Shown: positions 2,847 to 24,378 of the stretch, one piece after another
Position numbering within the stretch: position 1 is the first letter of the stretch
Layout: each line of letters starts with the position of its first letter
Virus record (IMG/VR): IMGVR_UViG_3300037189_013737
Location: 1-24,378 of that record
Strand: one strand, 5' to 3'
Source: a virus
Length of the DNA: 24,378 nucleotides
Notes under the pieces: generated by a model
Told to the model about the DNA's origin: nothing
The model's database searches: none
Seen by the model: the letters and a program-made list of their open reading frames with translations, nothing else
Translations under genes and position numbers: made by a program

Positions 2847-3731
2847 TTATTCAAAAAGTTTAACCCAAGCGTCTATTCGATTTGACCAGTCAAAGTGCTC
2901 CTTAGCGTACTGCTGAGCCCGCTTGCAAGACTCAACGTAAATCTCCGGGTCACGGTGCCTTAGAAGCGCCTCTCTGGCATCAGAGACCCACTCATTCTCT
3001 GGTATTCGCACCAAAACGCCAGAGGATCCATCGAAGTACCCAATTTCAGCGCAAATTACCAGCCTGCCGGCTGCAGCAGCTTCCATGATTGGAAGCCCGC
3101 AAGCCTCGTAGGACGATGGCAGCAGAAGGGCATCAATCGTCGTGTAAAATCCAGCCATGCAAAGGTGATGCATGAATGCGTGATCCTGAAAGTTGAACGG
3201 CAAACCATTCATCGTCTCGAAGATCAGATGTTTCCGTTTGCAGTCCTGTCCATTGCTCATTGTGTGGTGGAGTGCGCCGGCATAACCAACAGTTCTGAGC
3301 ATGTCTGAGATCGGCTCGTAAAAGTGGTCGAAATCAATCCCATTCAGCGTTACATCGGGCGTCCGTTGAATCCCGAAATTTGCGCTTGAAGCTATCATGC
3401 TCGGATTGATTACTGCATAAGCCTTGAGGCCATTAAACATCTCAACACCAGCAATATTCACGGCCTTGTAGATATCAACCTCTGCATGTGCCACCGTGAC
3501 AATTCGTTCTTTTGGCAGCCCGAAGACGTTGATCAGGTGTGGAACCTGTGGAGGGTTCGTATAGAAGATGTCGAACTTCTTTTTGAGGTACTCAATCTCA
3601 ATTTGGCTGTAGTTGATCCTCCAGTCCAGCACATGAGCGTAGATCCCGCGCTCCCAAAACCGTTTCACCAATGCGTTGTGGATCTGGCCAAAGGCCCAAG
3701 CATTCTCGGTGAAGAACGCTACAGACTTCAT
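2847..3731 (-). CDS. GT4-like glycosyltransferase (GT-B fold)
   Basis: 294 residues. Retaining glycosyltransferases of this type move a sugar from a nucleotide donor to an acceptor. The C-terminal half carries the donor-site signature with two glutamates seven residues apart, E209-ACGLPIM-E217, preceded by LLLPSSY; TLNGIDFDHFYEP (128-140) matches the inter-domain linker motif of GT4 enzymes. The N-terminal domain (MKSVAFFTENAWAFGQIHNAL) is shorter than usual, so the protein is below the typical ~370 residues. ATG overlaps the stop of the upstream GT4 gene by 4 nt (ATGA), implying translational coupling. No membrane helix is seen, so a cytoplasmic enzyme is likely. Acceptor unknown. Confidence 0.85.
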   Translation of the reverse strand: MKSVAFFTENAWAFGQIHNALVKRFWERGIYAHVLDWRINYSQIEIEYLKKKFDIFYTNPPQVPHLINVFGLPKERIVTVAHAEVDIYKAVNIAGVEMFNGLKAYAVINPSMIASSANFGIQRTPDVTLNGIDFDHFYEPISDMLRTVGYAGALHHTMSNGQDCKRKHLIFETMNGLPFNFQDHAFMHHLCMAGFYTTIDALLLPSSYEACGLPIMEAAAAGRLVICAEIGYFDGSSGVLVRIPENEWVSDAREALLRHRDPEIYVESCKRAQQYAKEHFDWSNRIDAWVKLFE

Positions 3732-4873
3732 CTGTAGAGTGCGCTGTAGTTTAAGCCAAGGCCCGGACCTAGCGGGCGGTTGTGGTCCTCGTAGAACCCC
3801 TTTCGGCTCAACACGTCAGAAAAGTCATCAAACGCTCGATGGAACTTTGGCCGAACAGCATCGAGTGAAAAATTCTCTTGAGCGAACGTAATCATCCTAT
3901 CCCGGTCGATCGTATCCACTAAGCGCATTGCTCGCAGAATGTCGCCCATCGTGTTGCAACGAAAACCGTTGACGCCATCGACGATGTACTCGGTCATCGC
4001 GCCGACATCGGTGCAGATCGGAACGCAACCTGACAGCATAGACTCCACTGCGGTGCCTCCAAATGGTTCCCAGTATGTGGACAGCAGAAACGAGTAAGAC
4101 GCCTCGCCAAGGAGCTTTTTGCGCGTCTCTAGATCGGCGTAGCCAATGTATTCAACATGATCAGGCCATTTATCGAACCCAACATCCTGACAGGATCCCT
4201 GACCAGCCACGACCAGCTTGACTCCAGCTTGGAACGTCGCATCGATGGCAATATCAACGCCCTTGTTCCGGCCAATCCTGCCTAACGCCACCGCGTATGG
4301 TTTGCGTTCCTTCTGCGGCGCAAAGTCTCGAAGGTCGAAGTAGTTTGGTACGATTCTTCCGTACCATTCGGGTTTGCAGTAGCTGACTCCCTCGGTTCCC
4401 ATGAACGCTGCTTTCAGAGGATACGATTCGTAACACCGAAATGGAGCCCACGCATGACCGCACCCGATCCCGGGCTCCACAACGATCAAATCCCCGTCCT
4501 TGTTTGCGTAGTCACAAGCCGGTTTCACACCTCCCCAAAAGGCAAGCACAAGATCCCCGCGTTTCTTCCTACGGTAAATTTCCGGCCCTGCGTTTTCGTT
4601 GAACACCCTGTGAGCCAAATCGTCCGCAGAGTGTTTGAATTGGCCCTTCCGCCAATCGTAGCCGCCATAGGCAGCTTCCAGCACCCTATTTGAGGTCACA
4701 TTCACCTGCTCGTCGGCGTCGGTAACGCTCTCCGGATGACCATAGTGAATTGTCTTGTACTCGTGACCCTTAAACATCGTCAGGAATTTTCTGACCTTTT
4801 GAGTGAAGGCACACGCGACGTAATCCGCGTTTGAGATGGTATGCGGAAGACCAAGACAATGTATTTGATTCAT
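3728..4873 (-). CDS. GT4 glycosyltransferase (GT-B fold)
   Basis: 381 residues, normal length for family GT4. The hallmarks are clear: VALGRIGRNKGVDIAIDA (195-212), a KLVVAGQGS strand-turn (219-227), YIGYADLETRKKLL (242-255) and the donor-binding E269-PFGGTAV-E277 followed by MLSGCVPICTDVGAMTEYI. The N-terminal domain contains ADYVACAFTQKVRKFL and a VVEPGIGCGH loop. It starts a three-gene block (GT4, GT4, FkbM-like methyltransferase) directly after the second collagen-like fibre and its small partner. The leader upstream of ATG is A-rich with no Shine-Dalgarno sequence. The linkage suggests action on a virion glycan, but a role in modifying host surface polysaccharide or lipopolysaccharide is equally open from sequence alone. 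Confidence 0.9.
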   Translation of the reverse strand: MNQIHCLGLPHTISNADYVACAFTQKVRKFLTMFKGHEYKTIHYGHPESVTDADEQVNVTSNRVLEAAYGGYDWRKGQFKHSADDLAHRVFNENAGPEIYRRKKRGDLVLAFWGGVKPACDYANKDGDLIVVEPGIGCGHAWAPFRCYESYPLKAAFMGTEGVSYCKPEWYGRIVPNYFDLRDFAPQKERKPYAVALGRIGRNKGVDIAIDATFQAGVKLVVAGQGSCQDVGFDKWPDHVEYIGYADLETRKKLLGEASYSFLLSTYWEPFGGTAVESMLSGCVPICTDVGAMTEYIVDGVNGFRCNTMGDILRAMRLVDTIDRDRMITFAQENFSLDAVRPKFHRAFDDFSDVLSRKGFYEDHNRPLGPGLGLNYSALYR

Positions 4874-5237: not shown

Positions 5238-8255
<3,018 letters not shown>

Positions 8256-9737: not shown

Positions 9738-12188
<2,451 letters not shown>

Positions 12189-20140: not shown

Positions 20141-20787
20141 TACCGTGCCTTTTTCTTTGTGAAGTTTTCAAGCAATGCAAACGGGCTTTTCCCGTAAGCG
20201 GCGAGGCGATCATCGGTATCAATCTCCAAGCCAAGCCGCTGCGCCTCTTCTTCACTCCAAACAACCTGTGCGTACTTTAAATTGTGCTGCTTTATAAGCG
20301 CATCCTGTTTTCCTCCTACCGACGCCTGAAGTTCAAAATTGGCGGGAATCTCTGCAATTCGGTTAACCCAGAAAGAAACGGATTTTGTGAATGCCCAAAA
20401 ATGAACATCCGGGTGTCTGGAGGCAAAGAGCAACCAGCCGTCAAAATACGCTTGTGAAAAAAAGTCTCCCGCTGCGTGAGTGCGAACTAGCCGAGCCTTT
20501 TTTGGGAGGCACTCTAGTACGTCCGCCACTTCTTCTGGGGTCTTTCCTTTTACTGCATCAAAGTTGCACCATAGCCTCTCCCTTACACTTGGGTATCGCT
20601 CGGTCATTGCGCTATAGCAGCGAAACTTTTGCTTTGGACCGTGCGTGATTGTGCCGGTAACCCTGTCCGCTTTTGACAAACACGCTTCAGCAGATGGACA
20701 CGTCCACCCACTAGGAAGGTTCCAAGCGTAGGCGCTAGGGTCAAACAGGTATCGGTTAGCTTTTGTGAACGCCGGGATCATAATCAC
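20140..20787 (-). CDS. Gp88-family phage protein
   Basis: 215 residues from GTG 20787 (GTGA overlap with the preceding stop); ATG two codons later is also possible. The pattern matches the phage Gene-product-88 family as I know it: cysteines C30, C36, C57 and C74, the segment ERLWCNFDAVKGKTPEEV and the conserved RLVRTHAAGDFFSQAYFDGW (99-118), then HFWAFTKSVSFW. Family function is not established to my knowledge; the clustered cysteines suggest metal or Fe-S binding. It stands between the ParB-domain gene and the cysteine-rich gene before the portal. Family assignment is moderate and function unknown. Confidence 0.75.
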   Translation of the reverse strand: MIMIPAFTKANRYLFDPSAYAWNLPSGWTCPSAEACLSKADRVTGTITHGPKQKFRCYSAMTERYPSVRERLWCNFDAVKGKTPEEVADVLECLPKKARLVRTHAAGDFFSQAYFDGWLLFASRHPDVHFWAFTKSVSFWVNRIAEIPANFELQASVGGKQDALIKQHNLKYAQVVWSEEEAQRLGLEIDTDDRLAAYGKSPFALLENFTKKKAR

Positions 20788-21260
20788 AGGACAAACTCAT
20801 GGTGACACTTCGGGCAAATTGTCGTGTCGCTGTCAGGCTTTTTGGGCTTTTCGTCAGGGATTTCGGGGACTTCGTCAGGAGACCCAATCATATCTTCAAT
20901 CTCTTCTTTTGAAAAGCCCAACACTTCCAAATCAAAATCTTCATCATTTAACGAATCAATTTCTGCCGCCAACACGTCAAAATCCCAGCAAGCCATCGAT
21001 GGAAGCTGGTTGTCGGCAATGGTGTAGGCCTTGATTTGAGCCCCACTCAATCCCTCTAGCACAATTACCGGAACTTGCTCCATCCCAGCTTCATGCGCCG
21101 CAAGGACGCGACCGTGCCCTGCAATGATTTTGCTTTTCTCTGAAATGAGAACAGGATTTGTAAATCCAAATTGTTTGATGGATTCTTTGAGTGCCTTGAT
21201 TTGTTCGTTGCTATGTTTTCTGGCGTTGTTTTCGTAAGGATCAAGATCCTTAATTGCCAT
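20784..21260 (-). CDS. ParB/Srx-domain protein with C-terminal CPKC motif
   Basis: 158 residues from ATG at 21260, chosen because GAGGT lies at good spacing upstream; a start at 21299 would lack this and overlap the upstream gene more. ParB N-terminal/sulfiredoxin-like domain: DPYENNARKHS (7-17), KESIKQFGFTNPVLI (25-39), IIAGHGRVLAAHEAG (45-59) with the catalytic/binding GHGR, and YTIADNQLPSMA (79-90). The C-terminus is acidic and ends CPKCHHEF, a single Cys pair. In many phages this domain sits beside or is fused to a DNA methyltransferase; none is found here. It may act in DNA binding, nicking or CTP-dependent regulation, which is unproven. Confidence 0.85.
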   Translation of the reverse strand: MAIKDLDPYENNARKHSNEQIKALKESIKQFGFTNPVLISEKSKIIAGHGRVLAAHEAGMEQVPVIVLEGLSGAQIKAYTIADNQLPSMACWDFDVLAAEIDSLNDEDFDLEVLGFSKEEIEDMIGSPDEVPEIPDEKPKKPDSDTTICPKCHHEFVL

Positions 21261-21441
21261 CATCTTTACCTCGAGCCGTCGTCTTGTAGAATCTTTCATG
21301 CAATGGGCAAATGTGTATATTCCTTCCGTCTAACAGCTTAATTTTTTTAGAAGTTCTGACATGGCATTTTTCATACTTAACGGGATTGTATGACAAAACT
21401 ATTACATGTCCACACTCCTGAAGATTTAGTTTTTTATTCAT
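21250..21441 (-). CDS. Small basic protein with cysteines, unknown
   Basis: 63 residues: MNKKLNLQECGHVIVLSYNP, then YEKCHVRTSKK, and NIHICPLHERFYKTTARGK. C10, C27 and C46 with His residues nearby (H12, H28, H44) suggest a small metal-binding fold, but no known family is recognised. It overlaps the MazG-like gene by 8 nt and the ParB-domain gene by 11 nt. It is part of the tightly coupled early block. Confidence 0.65.
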   Translation of the reverse strand: MNKKLNLQECGHVIVLSYNPVKYEKCHVRTSKKIKLLDGRNIHICPLHERFYKTTARGKDDGN

Positions 21442-21742: not shown

Positions 21743-21951
21743 TTCGATACTGATTCAATTAATTTGTTCCAGTCGTGAATTGATGCCACTCGCTCAACTG
21801 GAGTTTGAGCCCTTACTATTGCATTGCCAGCTCGGATCAAGCTAGCAACCTTTCGCTCCATCTCTTCAATGGCATCAAGCTCATCCATAATCGGCCGGCA
21901 ACGACCGCTATCGCGCCAACTTAACGTGTCTTCGCTGCATGTTGGCGTCAT
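21739..21951 (-). CDS. Small helical protein, unknown
   Basis: 70 residues: MTPTCSEDTLSWRDSGRCRP, then IMDELDAIEEMERKVASLIR and a helical tail ending LIESVSK. Mostly alpha-helical by composition, with no motif recognised. It starts with a strong Shine-Dalgarno sequence (GGGAGGA, about 7 nt before ATG), a rarity in this window. It overlaps both the Lar-like gene upstream and the MazG-like gene downstream by 4 nt, so its translation is coupled to both. Confidence 0.7.
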   Translation of the reverse strand: MTPTCSEDTLSWRDSGRCRPIMDELDAIEEMERKVASLIRAGNAIVRAQTPVERVASIHDWNKLIESVSK

Positions 21952-22238
21952 TCCTTGTCCTCCCTAGGCATGGCAGCAAAAACAATTTGAGCAAACCGGT
22001 TAAAAACCTCAAAAAGCGAATCTCCGTTTATTACCAAAGAGGCTTTATTCCGAACTGCAGAATTCCAAAGCTGAACAGCAGTGATATCATTCAGCGATTG
22101 CGGTCCTGCAGCACCGCATTCATTACAAGTAACACAAAATAAACCATCATCATCGTCAATGTCGCTCAAGTCTTCTAGTGAAAATGATTCTTGTTTACAG
22201 AATGGACACTGAAGAATCTCTATTTTTGTTGAACTCAT
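21948..22238 (-). CDS. Lar-like zinc-ribbon protein, possible restriction alleviation
   Basis: 96 residues. C11-PF-C14 and C38-NE-C41 with GAAGP after the second pair and AVQLWNSAV at 54-62 match the Lar zinc-ribbon pattern (CPFC, then C..CG.AGP, then A...WN). Lar proteins alleviate host restriction or modulate type I restriction-modification in the examples known. The acidic insertion LEDLSDIDDDDG lies between the two pairs, longer than in a minimal ribbon. The C-terminal half (SLFEVFNRFAQIVFAAMPRE) is helical and unknown. ATGA overlaps on both sides tie it to its neighbours. Anti-restriction function is inferred from the family. Confidence 0.75.
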   Translation of the reverse strand: MSSTKIEILQCPFCKQESFSLEDLSDIDDDDGLFCVTCNECGAAGPQSLNDITAVQLWNSAVRNKASLVINGDSLFEVFNRFAQIVFAAMPREDKE

Positions 22239-22907: not shown

Positions 22908-23106
22908 ATGTTATTGCTCCAATAATAGCAAACCCAAGCCTACGTCTTGTTTTTGCGCCAACCCCAGCCGGCGGTCGTTCAAAAACAACTGCCGCGTAAA
23001 GACGTTCTAAGGAGCCGCCGCAATCATACTGCTCAGCGTACTTCAGAGCAGCTTTAAGCTCTCTTCCGCGAAGGTTTGCGGTCAGAAAAGAAATGTGTCC
23101 ACTCAT
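22891..23106 (-). CDS. Small protein, unknown
   Basis: 71 residues: MSGHISFLTANLRGRELKAA, LKYAEQYDCGGSLERLYAAV, VFERPPAGVGAKTRRRLGFA and IIGAITFVEGK. One short hydrophobic stretch near the C-terminus (AIIGAITFV) is too short for a clear membrane helix. ATG overlaps the upstream stop (ATGA). No family recognised. Confidence 0.65.
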   Translation of the reverse strand: MSGHISFLTANLRGRELKAALKYAEQYDCGGSLERLYAAVVFERPPAGVGAKTRRRLGFAIIGAITFVEGK

Positions 23107-23402
23107 ACCGCTACCATGATGCGTTGAGACCGTCCGGAAGCCGCCCGTTTTGATCCAGCTTCTCGGATGAGTTTTTTGCGGAACAGCGCCCTGTATCGGG
23201 GCGTGATTGATCCATACCCAAACTCAGGCAGGTCTGCGATGACATCGTCAGAGATGCACCCAGCTTCCCCGTAGGATCGAACCACCTCCAAAACCATCTC
23301 CTCGAGCTTACTCGCATCGAGGGAAGCAGCTGCTTGCTTGCTCGTCACAGGGTCACTGCGACGAGCGGCAGGCTTGCTGAAATCAAGCTCAGGCTGGATC
23401 AT
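23103..23402 (-). CDS. Winged-helix-like DNA-binding protein candidate
   Basis: 99 residues from ATG at 23402, which overlaps the previous stop by 4 nt; an open frame extends upstream but overlaps the 191-residue gene and has unrelated composition. MIQPELDFSKPAARRSDPVT, then SKQAAASLDASKLEEMVLEV, a helix-turn-helix-like ISDDVIADLPEFGYGSITPR and YRALFRKKLIREAGSKRAAS. This is the layout of small phage winged-helix proteins that recognise DNA and regulate or help replication. The recognition helix is probably GSITPRYRALFRKK. Function beyond DNA binding is not known. Confidence 0.7.
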   Translation of the reverse strand: MIQPELDFSKPAARRSDPVTSKQAAASLDASKLEEMVLEVVRSYGEAGCISDDVIADLPEFGYGSITPRYRALFRKKLIREAGSKRAASGRSQRIMVAV

Positions 23403-23974
23403 TGGATAGCTTTCCAGAGGGAGAGATTGAACGTCCCGAACGGACCGCCTTTCTCGGGGCGGAAGTCCCCGATACCAACCTGCTGACCGCCCTCGGTGAT
23501 GAGTTGCTGAACAAACTCCGGAGGGAGAAGATCCTCGTTCACACGGACCGAGAACCGGGCAGACCAGCAATCAAACCGAGGACGATGGCGCATGATCCGC
23601 CCTTTGGTCGCCGGAATTGTCACTGGTCGGGAATCGACCTCGAACGACTTGGAAGGGGTCTCGCCGTCAAGGTCAAGGATCGTCACCGTGTCCTGCGTCA
23701 CCAGCACCGCAGCCGGCACGACGTACTTTGCAGACTTCCGAGTGCCCCTGAGCTTGTGGCCTCCGCCGGCTTCACGAATGAGTCGAGCGATCGCCGCGCC
23801 CGGAAAGTAGTAGGTACCATCACTGGCCTGATAAACGACCTCCTGAGCCTGTTCCCGAGGAGATTTCTCGACCACAAGAGCACTGCGGGTTGCCTTTCCC
23901 TGCTGTGCCGCCTCAGTGAAACGGTGTTGAAGTAGGGGTGATGTGCCTTCGATTAGGACTTCGTATGTTTTCAT
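23399..23974 (-). CDS. Conserved-looking phage protein, unknown (191 aa)
   Basis: 191 residues: MKTYEVLIEGTSPLLQHRFT opens the protein, then VYQASDGTYYFPGAAIARLI, TVTILDLDGETPSKSFEVDS, RHRPRFDCWSARFSVRV and the C-terminal VGIGDFRPEKGGPFGTFNLS. Beta-rich with two glycine-rich loops. The opening strand plus PLL-H and the closing glycine loop faintly resemble the RAMP-type fold of Cas7-like proteins, but I cannot establish homology by eye. It is the first gene after the pentamer repeat and the ABA-sandwich gene. The A/T-rich leader before the ATG has no Shine-Dalgarno motif. Confidence 0.75.
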   Translation of the reverse strand: MKTYEVLIEGTSPLLQHRFTEAAQQGKATRSALVVEKSPREQAQEVVYQASDGTYYFPGAAIARLIREAGGGHKLRGTRKSAKYVVPAAVLVTQDTVTILDLDGETPSKSFEVDSRPVTIPATKGRIMRHRPRFDCWSARFSVRVNEDLLPPEFVQQLITEGGQQVGIGDFRPEKGGPFGTFNLSLWKAIQ

Positions 23975-24025
23975 TTATTTTGCTGTAGTTGCGATTTTTG
24001 CGAGATCGTGAACTCAAATTGTATC

Positions 24026-24095
24026 CATGCCTTGCCTTGCCTTGCCTCACCGTGCCTTGCCGAGCCATGCCCTGCCGGACCGCGCCTGACCGCGC
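24026..24095 (-). repeat. Degenerate pentamer repeat, 14 units of G(C/T)NNG
   Basis: On the minus strand, starting immediately after the stop codon of the ABA-sandwich gene, 14 consecutive pentamers run 24095-24026. Every unit starts with G, ends with G and has C or T second: GCGCG, GTCAG, GCGCG, GTCCG, GCAGG, GCATG, GCTCG, GCAAG, GCACG, GTGAG, three GCAAG, GCATG. It is non-coding and lies in the 121-nt gap before the 191-residue gene. Function unknown; candidates are a structural or recombination element. Confidence 0.85.
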
Positions 24096-24378
24096 CTAAA
24101 AAGCATCAATACCTTCCGTTCCCTCCCATTTGCCCAGCGTCCGCAAAAACGCCTCTGCGCGTTGGCGGGCTGTGGCGCAAAAAAATGACGAGTCATCCGA
24201 ATAATGTGAGTTTGTGACTCTAGCTAGCTGAGTTGCGTAAAATGGGTTCCAATCCGAGAAAATAACCTTCTCCGCCTCATGCATCGCGTTGAGGTCGGTG
24301 CAGTAGTTTGGCAGGTCACTTTGCCATAGATCCCCATTCAAATCTCGGCAAATTAAATTGCCTTTCCAGCCACACGCC
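24096..24378 (-). CDS. Phage ABA-sandwich domain protein, 5' end beyond the window
   Basis: The frame is open to the right edge of the window, giving at least 93 residues; a TTG at 24341 is an internal possibility but the upstream frame is open with in-family residues, so the true start lies outside. The C-terminal part reads LPNYCTDLNAMHEAEKVIFS, NPFYATQLARVTN and ATARQRAEAFLRTLGKWEGT. The DLNAMHEAEK and ATARQRAEAFLRT-G-WE patterns are the hallmark of the small phage ABA-sandwich domain, a widespread domain of unknown function in phage early regions. The stop TAG borders the pentamer repeat directly. Confidence 0.85.
   Translation of the reverse strand, partial: ACGWKGNLICRDLNGDLWQSDLPNYCTDLNAMHEAEKVIFSDWNPFYATQLARVTNSHYSDDSSFFCATARQRAEAFLRTLGKWEGTEGIDAF

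Follow-up and report, generated by a model that had tools for sequence, protein, structure and literature searches.

A 14-unit GGYNN array beside a RAMP-fold protein gene in an IMG/VR virus record is very probably a VIPR guide region

What is the role of a strictly periodic array of degenerate pentamers that separates the end of one ORF from the gene of an uncharacterized 191-aa protein? The question was raised by positions 1 to 24,378 of the IMG/VR virus record IMGVR_UViG_3300037189_013737, a stretch of 24,378 nucleotides (hereafter the window) with phage-type genes including ParB, MazG and a Lar-like gene. A sequence-only reading had described the array in the register G(C/T)NNG, and in this register it does run from 24095 to 24026 on the minus strand as that reading gave. 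We used the register GGYNN (Table 1), in which the array starts with the G that closes the TAG stop codon (24098-24096) of the upstream ORF. The earlier statement that the array begins exactly at the stop codon holds in this register.

Table 1. Positions of the array, its protein gene and the flanking features in the window.
Feature	Position	Strand	Basis or remark
Very probable vrRNA repeat tract, 14 GGYNN units	24027..24096	minus (reads 24096->24027)	pattern match; layout as in the vrRNAs of PMC13142463
vipr, gene of the 191-aa RAMP-fold protein, phrog_4652	23399..23974	minus	family, PDB and fold matches
Putative vrRNA 3' tail, also 5' leader of vipr (52 nt)	23975..24026	minus	position
3' end of the upstream ORF, TAG stop touching the array	24096..24377	minus	no family match
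99-aa ORF, phrog_1123, candidate accessory (vap) gene	23103..23402	minus	overlaps the vipr stop by 4 bases (ATGA)

The 14 units of the array are, in reading order, GGCGC GGTCA GGCGC GGTCC GGCAG GGCAT GGCTC GGCAA GGCAC GGTGA GGCAA GGCAA GGCAA GGCAT. The triplet GGY is intact in all of them, without interruption over 42 fixed positions, and the variable dinucleotides follow in the order GC, CA, GC, CC, AG, AT, TC, AA, AC, GA, AA, AA, AA and AT. Matches of the window to a ten-unit GGYNN pattern were confined to the array, and none occurred in 100 dinucleotide-preserving shuffles. Outside the array and the stretches overlapping it, no run of nine units on either strand had more than 18 of the 27 fixed positions. 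No second array was found on either strand of the 24-kb record, an IMG/VR fragment that ends 282 bases upstream of the array. Because the NN positions vary, Tandem Repeats Finder split the array into two rows, both of them weak. Rfam models gave nothing at gathering score in the array region, with a weak pseudoknot match beside the array (23992-24016, E = 0.25), and no hammerhead was found in ten relatives. A coding repeat was considered and rejected: one frame is the end of the upstream ORF, a second has a TGA inside the array, and there is no shared protein.

The array lies on the minus strand, as do the upstream ORF and the 191-aa gene. The protein encoded by this gene matched phrog_4652 (E=1e-18), a family annotated as of unknown function. 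By itself it also matched PDB 36pp chain D, named 'SUSP1 Vipr protein', with E=1.8e-5, and a profile of 86 relatives matched the same chain with E=1.5e-37; the SUSP1 Vipr gene for its part matched phrog_4652 with E=1.4e-96. The AlphaFold model of the window protein was confident (pLDDT 94.7). Its best PDB matches in Foldseek were Csm3/Cas7-like RAMP subunits (E down to 1.8e-7), and BFVD gave a match under the name 'Cas system-associated RAMP superfamily protein'. A maximum-likelihood tree placed the window protein in a 14-row clade of metagenomic contigs (support 100/99), apart from SUSP1 and LESphi2 and with no named phage among the 14 rows.

The Viral Interference Programmable Repeat (VIPR) is described in a preprint (PMC13142463; bioRxiv 2026.04.26.720920, April/June 2026) as a phage-encoded ancestral RAMP protein, Vipr, together with vrRNA guides in which a YNNGG unit is repeated 9-16 times. 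The targets are double-stranded DNA, read by the NN dinucleotides with a one-base gap from each pair to the next, and genes of competing phages are repressed (PMC13142463). The guides are intergenic, flank vipr and carry an invariable, structured 3' tail after the repeats; a vap gene is typical but not universal, and the systems occur mostly in phages or prophages (PMC13142463). For other VIPRs the reported results are that the RNA is expressed and forms an RNP, that recognition follows the 1-nt skip rule, and that DNA is bound and genes are silenced; guide function was measured for SUSP1 (PMC13142463).

The window is matched with this description in several characteristics. It encodes a small RAMP homologue, its 14 units fall within the range of 9-16, and its setting is viral. 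It shows a single guide, which is intergenic and adjoins vipr, the array lying 52 bases upstream of the vipr start codon on the same strand. As the window agrees with PMC13142463 in its protein, in the unit and number of the repeats, in their position and in the viral setting, we count the locus as a new member of VIPR. The array is then, almost certainly, a vrRNA guide region and the adjoining protein is Vipr, which would be the partner that binds this RNA.

The linkage of array and protein was observed directly across many phages. Among 40 IMG/VR contigs found by the protein, 37 carry GGYNN runs of at least five units, all on the strand of the gene and mostly no more than a few hundred bases from it, upstream or downstream. 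Two of the other three begin inside the gene, and L001 has a four-unit run only. The reverse test is stronger because its starting point is not the protein. A phrog_4652-family protein was encoded within the fetched stretch in 89 of 120 viral contigs, among the matches listed, that were chosen solely by 11 exact GGY units (a pattern present in at least 120 contigs). The contig set has near-duplicates, and 85 proteins remain at 85% identity. In a control of 75 viral contigs (652 kb), none had the protein or an array of at least six units. Isolates had this pairing too, again with array and gene on the same strand, namely Escherichia phage SUSP1, Pseudomonas LESphi2, cyanophage Cy-LDV1, Cheoctovirus mycobacteriophages and Gordonia phages UmaThurman, Ecliptus and Pipp. 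The sequence-only reading had proposed to look for an equal periodicity at a like place in relatives, and this check was positive, with arrays beside the same protein family. Its view of a periodic design tied to the 191-aa protein, and not a simple microsatellite, agrees with the 14 exact GGYNN units and with this linkage.

The same reading had offered three further explanations at the DNA level: a binding array for a ParB or winged-helix protein, an origin- or recombination-linked element, and a relic of slippage. A ParB-domain gene does lie about 2 kb further on (20784-21299). However, arrays accompany the Vipr gene in phages that are unrelated to each other, and their strand relative to it is constant with a single exception: L137 is the sole locus with arrays on the strand opposite to the Vipr match, and that match is partial and weak. 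In addition, the NN positions are near random. In 352 distinct arrays of at least nine units, taken from L001-L160 and the window, with GGY fixed by the search itself, the two positions had entropies of 1.94 and 1.99 bits, near the maximum. Neither the protein-binding array nor the origin or recombination element finds support in these data, and any DNA-level element or slippage relic is hardly credible. A microsatellite or slippage relic was rejected because GGY is intact in 14 units and NN is near maximum entropy across the family. A pure-repeat ancestor, which the earlier reading had connected with simple decay, was not seen among the 352 arrays. Near-maximum NN entropy with fixed GGY fits the expectation for guides.

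Periodic RNA sites are also known from a different kind of regulation: TRAP RNA sites are (G/U)AGNN repeats. We first considered TRAP-like attenuation, with the array as the binding site of a ring or filament protein controlling the vipr transcript itself, and gave this up when the partner was recognised as a RAMP protein. The five-base period, the free dinucleotides and the leader position just before the gene would all suit such a site. But the window array has the triplet GGY in 14/14 units and not (G/U)AG, and the partner has the RAMP fold, which is unrelated to that of TRAP. In the family, arrays are also located on the downstream side of the gene, and several copies often stand in tandem, unlike a single regulatory leader, and for SUSP1 the measured function is that of a guide (PMC13142463). 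We consider the attenuation site very improbable.

As a VIPR locus, the window region would be transcribed on the minus strand, and Vipr subunits would be arranged in a row on the RNA, with one subunit on every GGY frame, presenting the two variable bases. The 14 dinucleotides (28 bases) would then jointly pair with double-stranded DNA, with one ignored base after each two-base match, and the predicted target code is GCxCAxGCxCCxAGxATxTCxAAxACxGAxAAxAAxAAxAT. Binding would block transcription of the matched gene, the most likely bearer being a competing phage, a satellite or a prophage; the matched DNA probably belongs to a rival phage. By analogy with the VIPRs studied by experiment, the window system is presumably expressed and functional.

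The target code was searched in several collections. When IMG/VR was searched at four offsets for exact matches to blocks of eight of the 14 dinucleotides, spaced by 1 nt, the best overall agreement was 22/28 bases, which is the chance level, and no exact 10-unit block was found. The nine-unit core gave four matches in 84,980 genomes, again at the chance level, and the contigs of nine relatives and the other collected loci had nothing above chance. When 368 guides were compared with 1.4 Mb of loci, too little target sequence for the skip rule, spacing by 1 nt showed no excess over 0, 2 or 3.

A target search without a match above chance, the single guide and the weak tail would also fit a decayed guide, which was formerly functional and is now merely a vipr leader kept by chance. 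Loss of the array does happen, since the close relatives L003-L010 keep a similar TACAATTTG stretch before vipr with no array of at least five units. However, decay would strike GGY as often as NN, and the 14 GGY triplets (42 positions) of the window are intact; the unit count is also still within the reported range. We therefore regard a vestigial guide as unlikely and prefer a guide in use by VIPR.

The stretch between array and vipr may serve as the tail of the vrRNA. We infer this role from position because in fold prediction the stretch did not outperform shuffled sequences (z 0.20, for a single copy only). The tail starts with GGA, with A in place of Y, and the same start was found in 18 of 44 long arrays of the Vipr clade of the window. 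Locus L002, with four guides in 3665-4082, belongs together with the window to a set of four rows in the tree (support 99/92). Each of these guides ends with GGAACAT, followed by a covarying hairpin, in which 5 of 9 pairs are changed on both sides, and then by GGTGGTTTG; together these form a structured vrRNA tail. In another group of loci (L018, L025-L037), array blocks upstream of vipr regularly end with GGTAC, then AT, GT or GC before the next block; such block ends might mark where successive guides are processed or overlap.

Regarding the flanking ORFs, the upstream one probably lies outside the VIPR system. Downstream, relatives of the phrog_1123 ORF in other loci were in no case adjoining vipr, so its link as a vap gene is unsupported. 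No known vap gene was found at the window locus, where the gene next to vipr is neither phrog_5926 nor phrog_15946. The latter family adjoins vipr or the array in Cheoctovirus, Gordonia phage Pipp and cyanophage Cy-LDV1 (L171, L174, L175) and comes after vipr in Cheoctovirus and Gordonia phages. It is likely an accessory (vap) gene, and SUSP1 and LESphi2 have phrog_5926 in its place. It is conceivable, though we find it rather doubtful, that in the Vipr clade of the window VIPR works without an accessory protein, and that the guide is the untranslated leader of vipr, with one transcript for both, which may tune each other.

The VIPR of SUSP1 (type II; PMC13142463) resembles the window locus in its phrog_4652 Vipr, in the same-strand GGY/NN arrays beside the gene and in being phage-encoded. 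In SUSP1 there are four vrRNAs of ~100 nt and a structured tail, and vipr is followed by vap1 (phrog_5926). The window has a single guide and no homologue of vap1, its tail has no supported structure, and its Vipr belongs to a separate clade. The RAMP proteins of Class 1 CRISPR-Cas (Csm3, Cas7, Csm5) share with Vipr the RAMP fold and a glycine-rich C-terminal loop. In contrast to Class 1 systems, the window guide is broken by GGY every five bases, and there is neither a cas operon nor a repeat-spacer array: the scanned early-region proteins of the window had no Pfam match to Cas proteins, and the tandem-repeat scan of the window found no CRISPR-type repeats.

VIPR has been proposed as the viral ancestor of CRISPR RAMP proteins and as the first guide system that reads DNA non-contiguously. 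The window adds a compact example, with one guide and one gene, outside the clade studied by experiment. The anonymous family phrog_4652 is now tied to Vipr, and with this link VIPR loci can readily be located in phage genomes that are already annotated. Arrays stand at the head of the early operon in Cheoctovirus and Gordonia phages that are in culture, and the system would be testable there in standard laboratory strains.

Some GGYNN arrays of cultivated phages are partly annotated as hypothetical proteins, such as Donkeykong gp48 (L171, 4833-5219), Pipp gp43 (L175, 2997-3266) and ByChance gp39 (L176, 3956-4114); these are probably mis-called ORFs over guide RNA. The contig of L013 has a truncated second copy of vipr (2586-2915) directly upstream of the full gene (2995-3570), as well as many GGTNN-rich arrays, one of 47 units.

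Elsewhere in the window, two long proteins compared with a phage collection for host assignment had no match there. Two long collagen-like proteins are encoded on the minus strand (5238-8255 and 9738-12188), with Gly-X-Y runs of up to 46 triplets and Pfam Collagen matches of E about 1e-42. They are probably fibres, and the 9- and 18-base repeats of these two regions are due to them. Adjacent glycosyltransferase genes (Pfam Glycos_transf_1 / Glyco_trans_1_4) were identified on the minus strand at 2847-3731 and 3728-4873. The early region encodes a Lar-like restriction alleviation protein (phrog_599; 21948-22238, minus), with MazG, ParB-domain and GP88 genes nearby.
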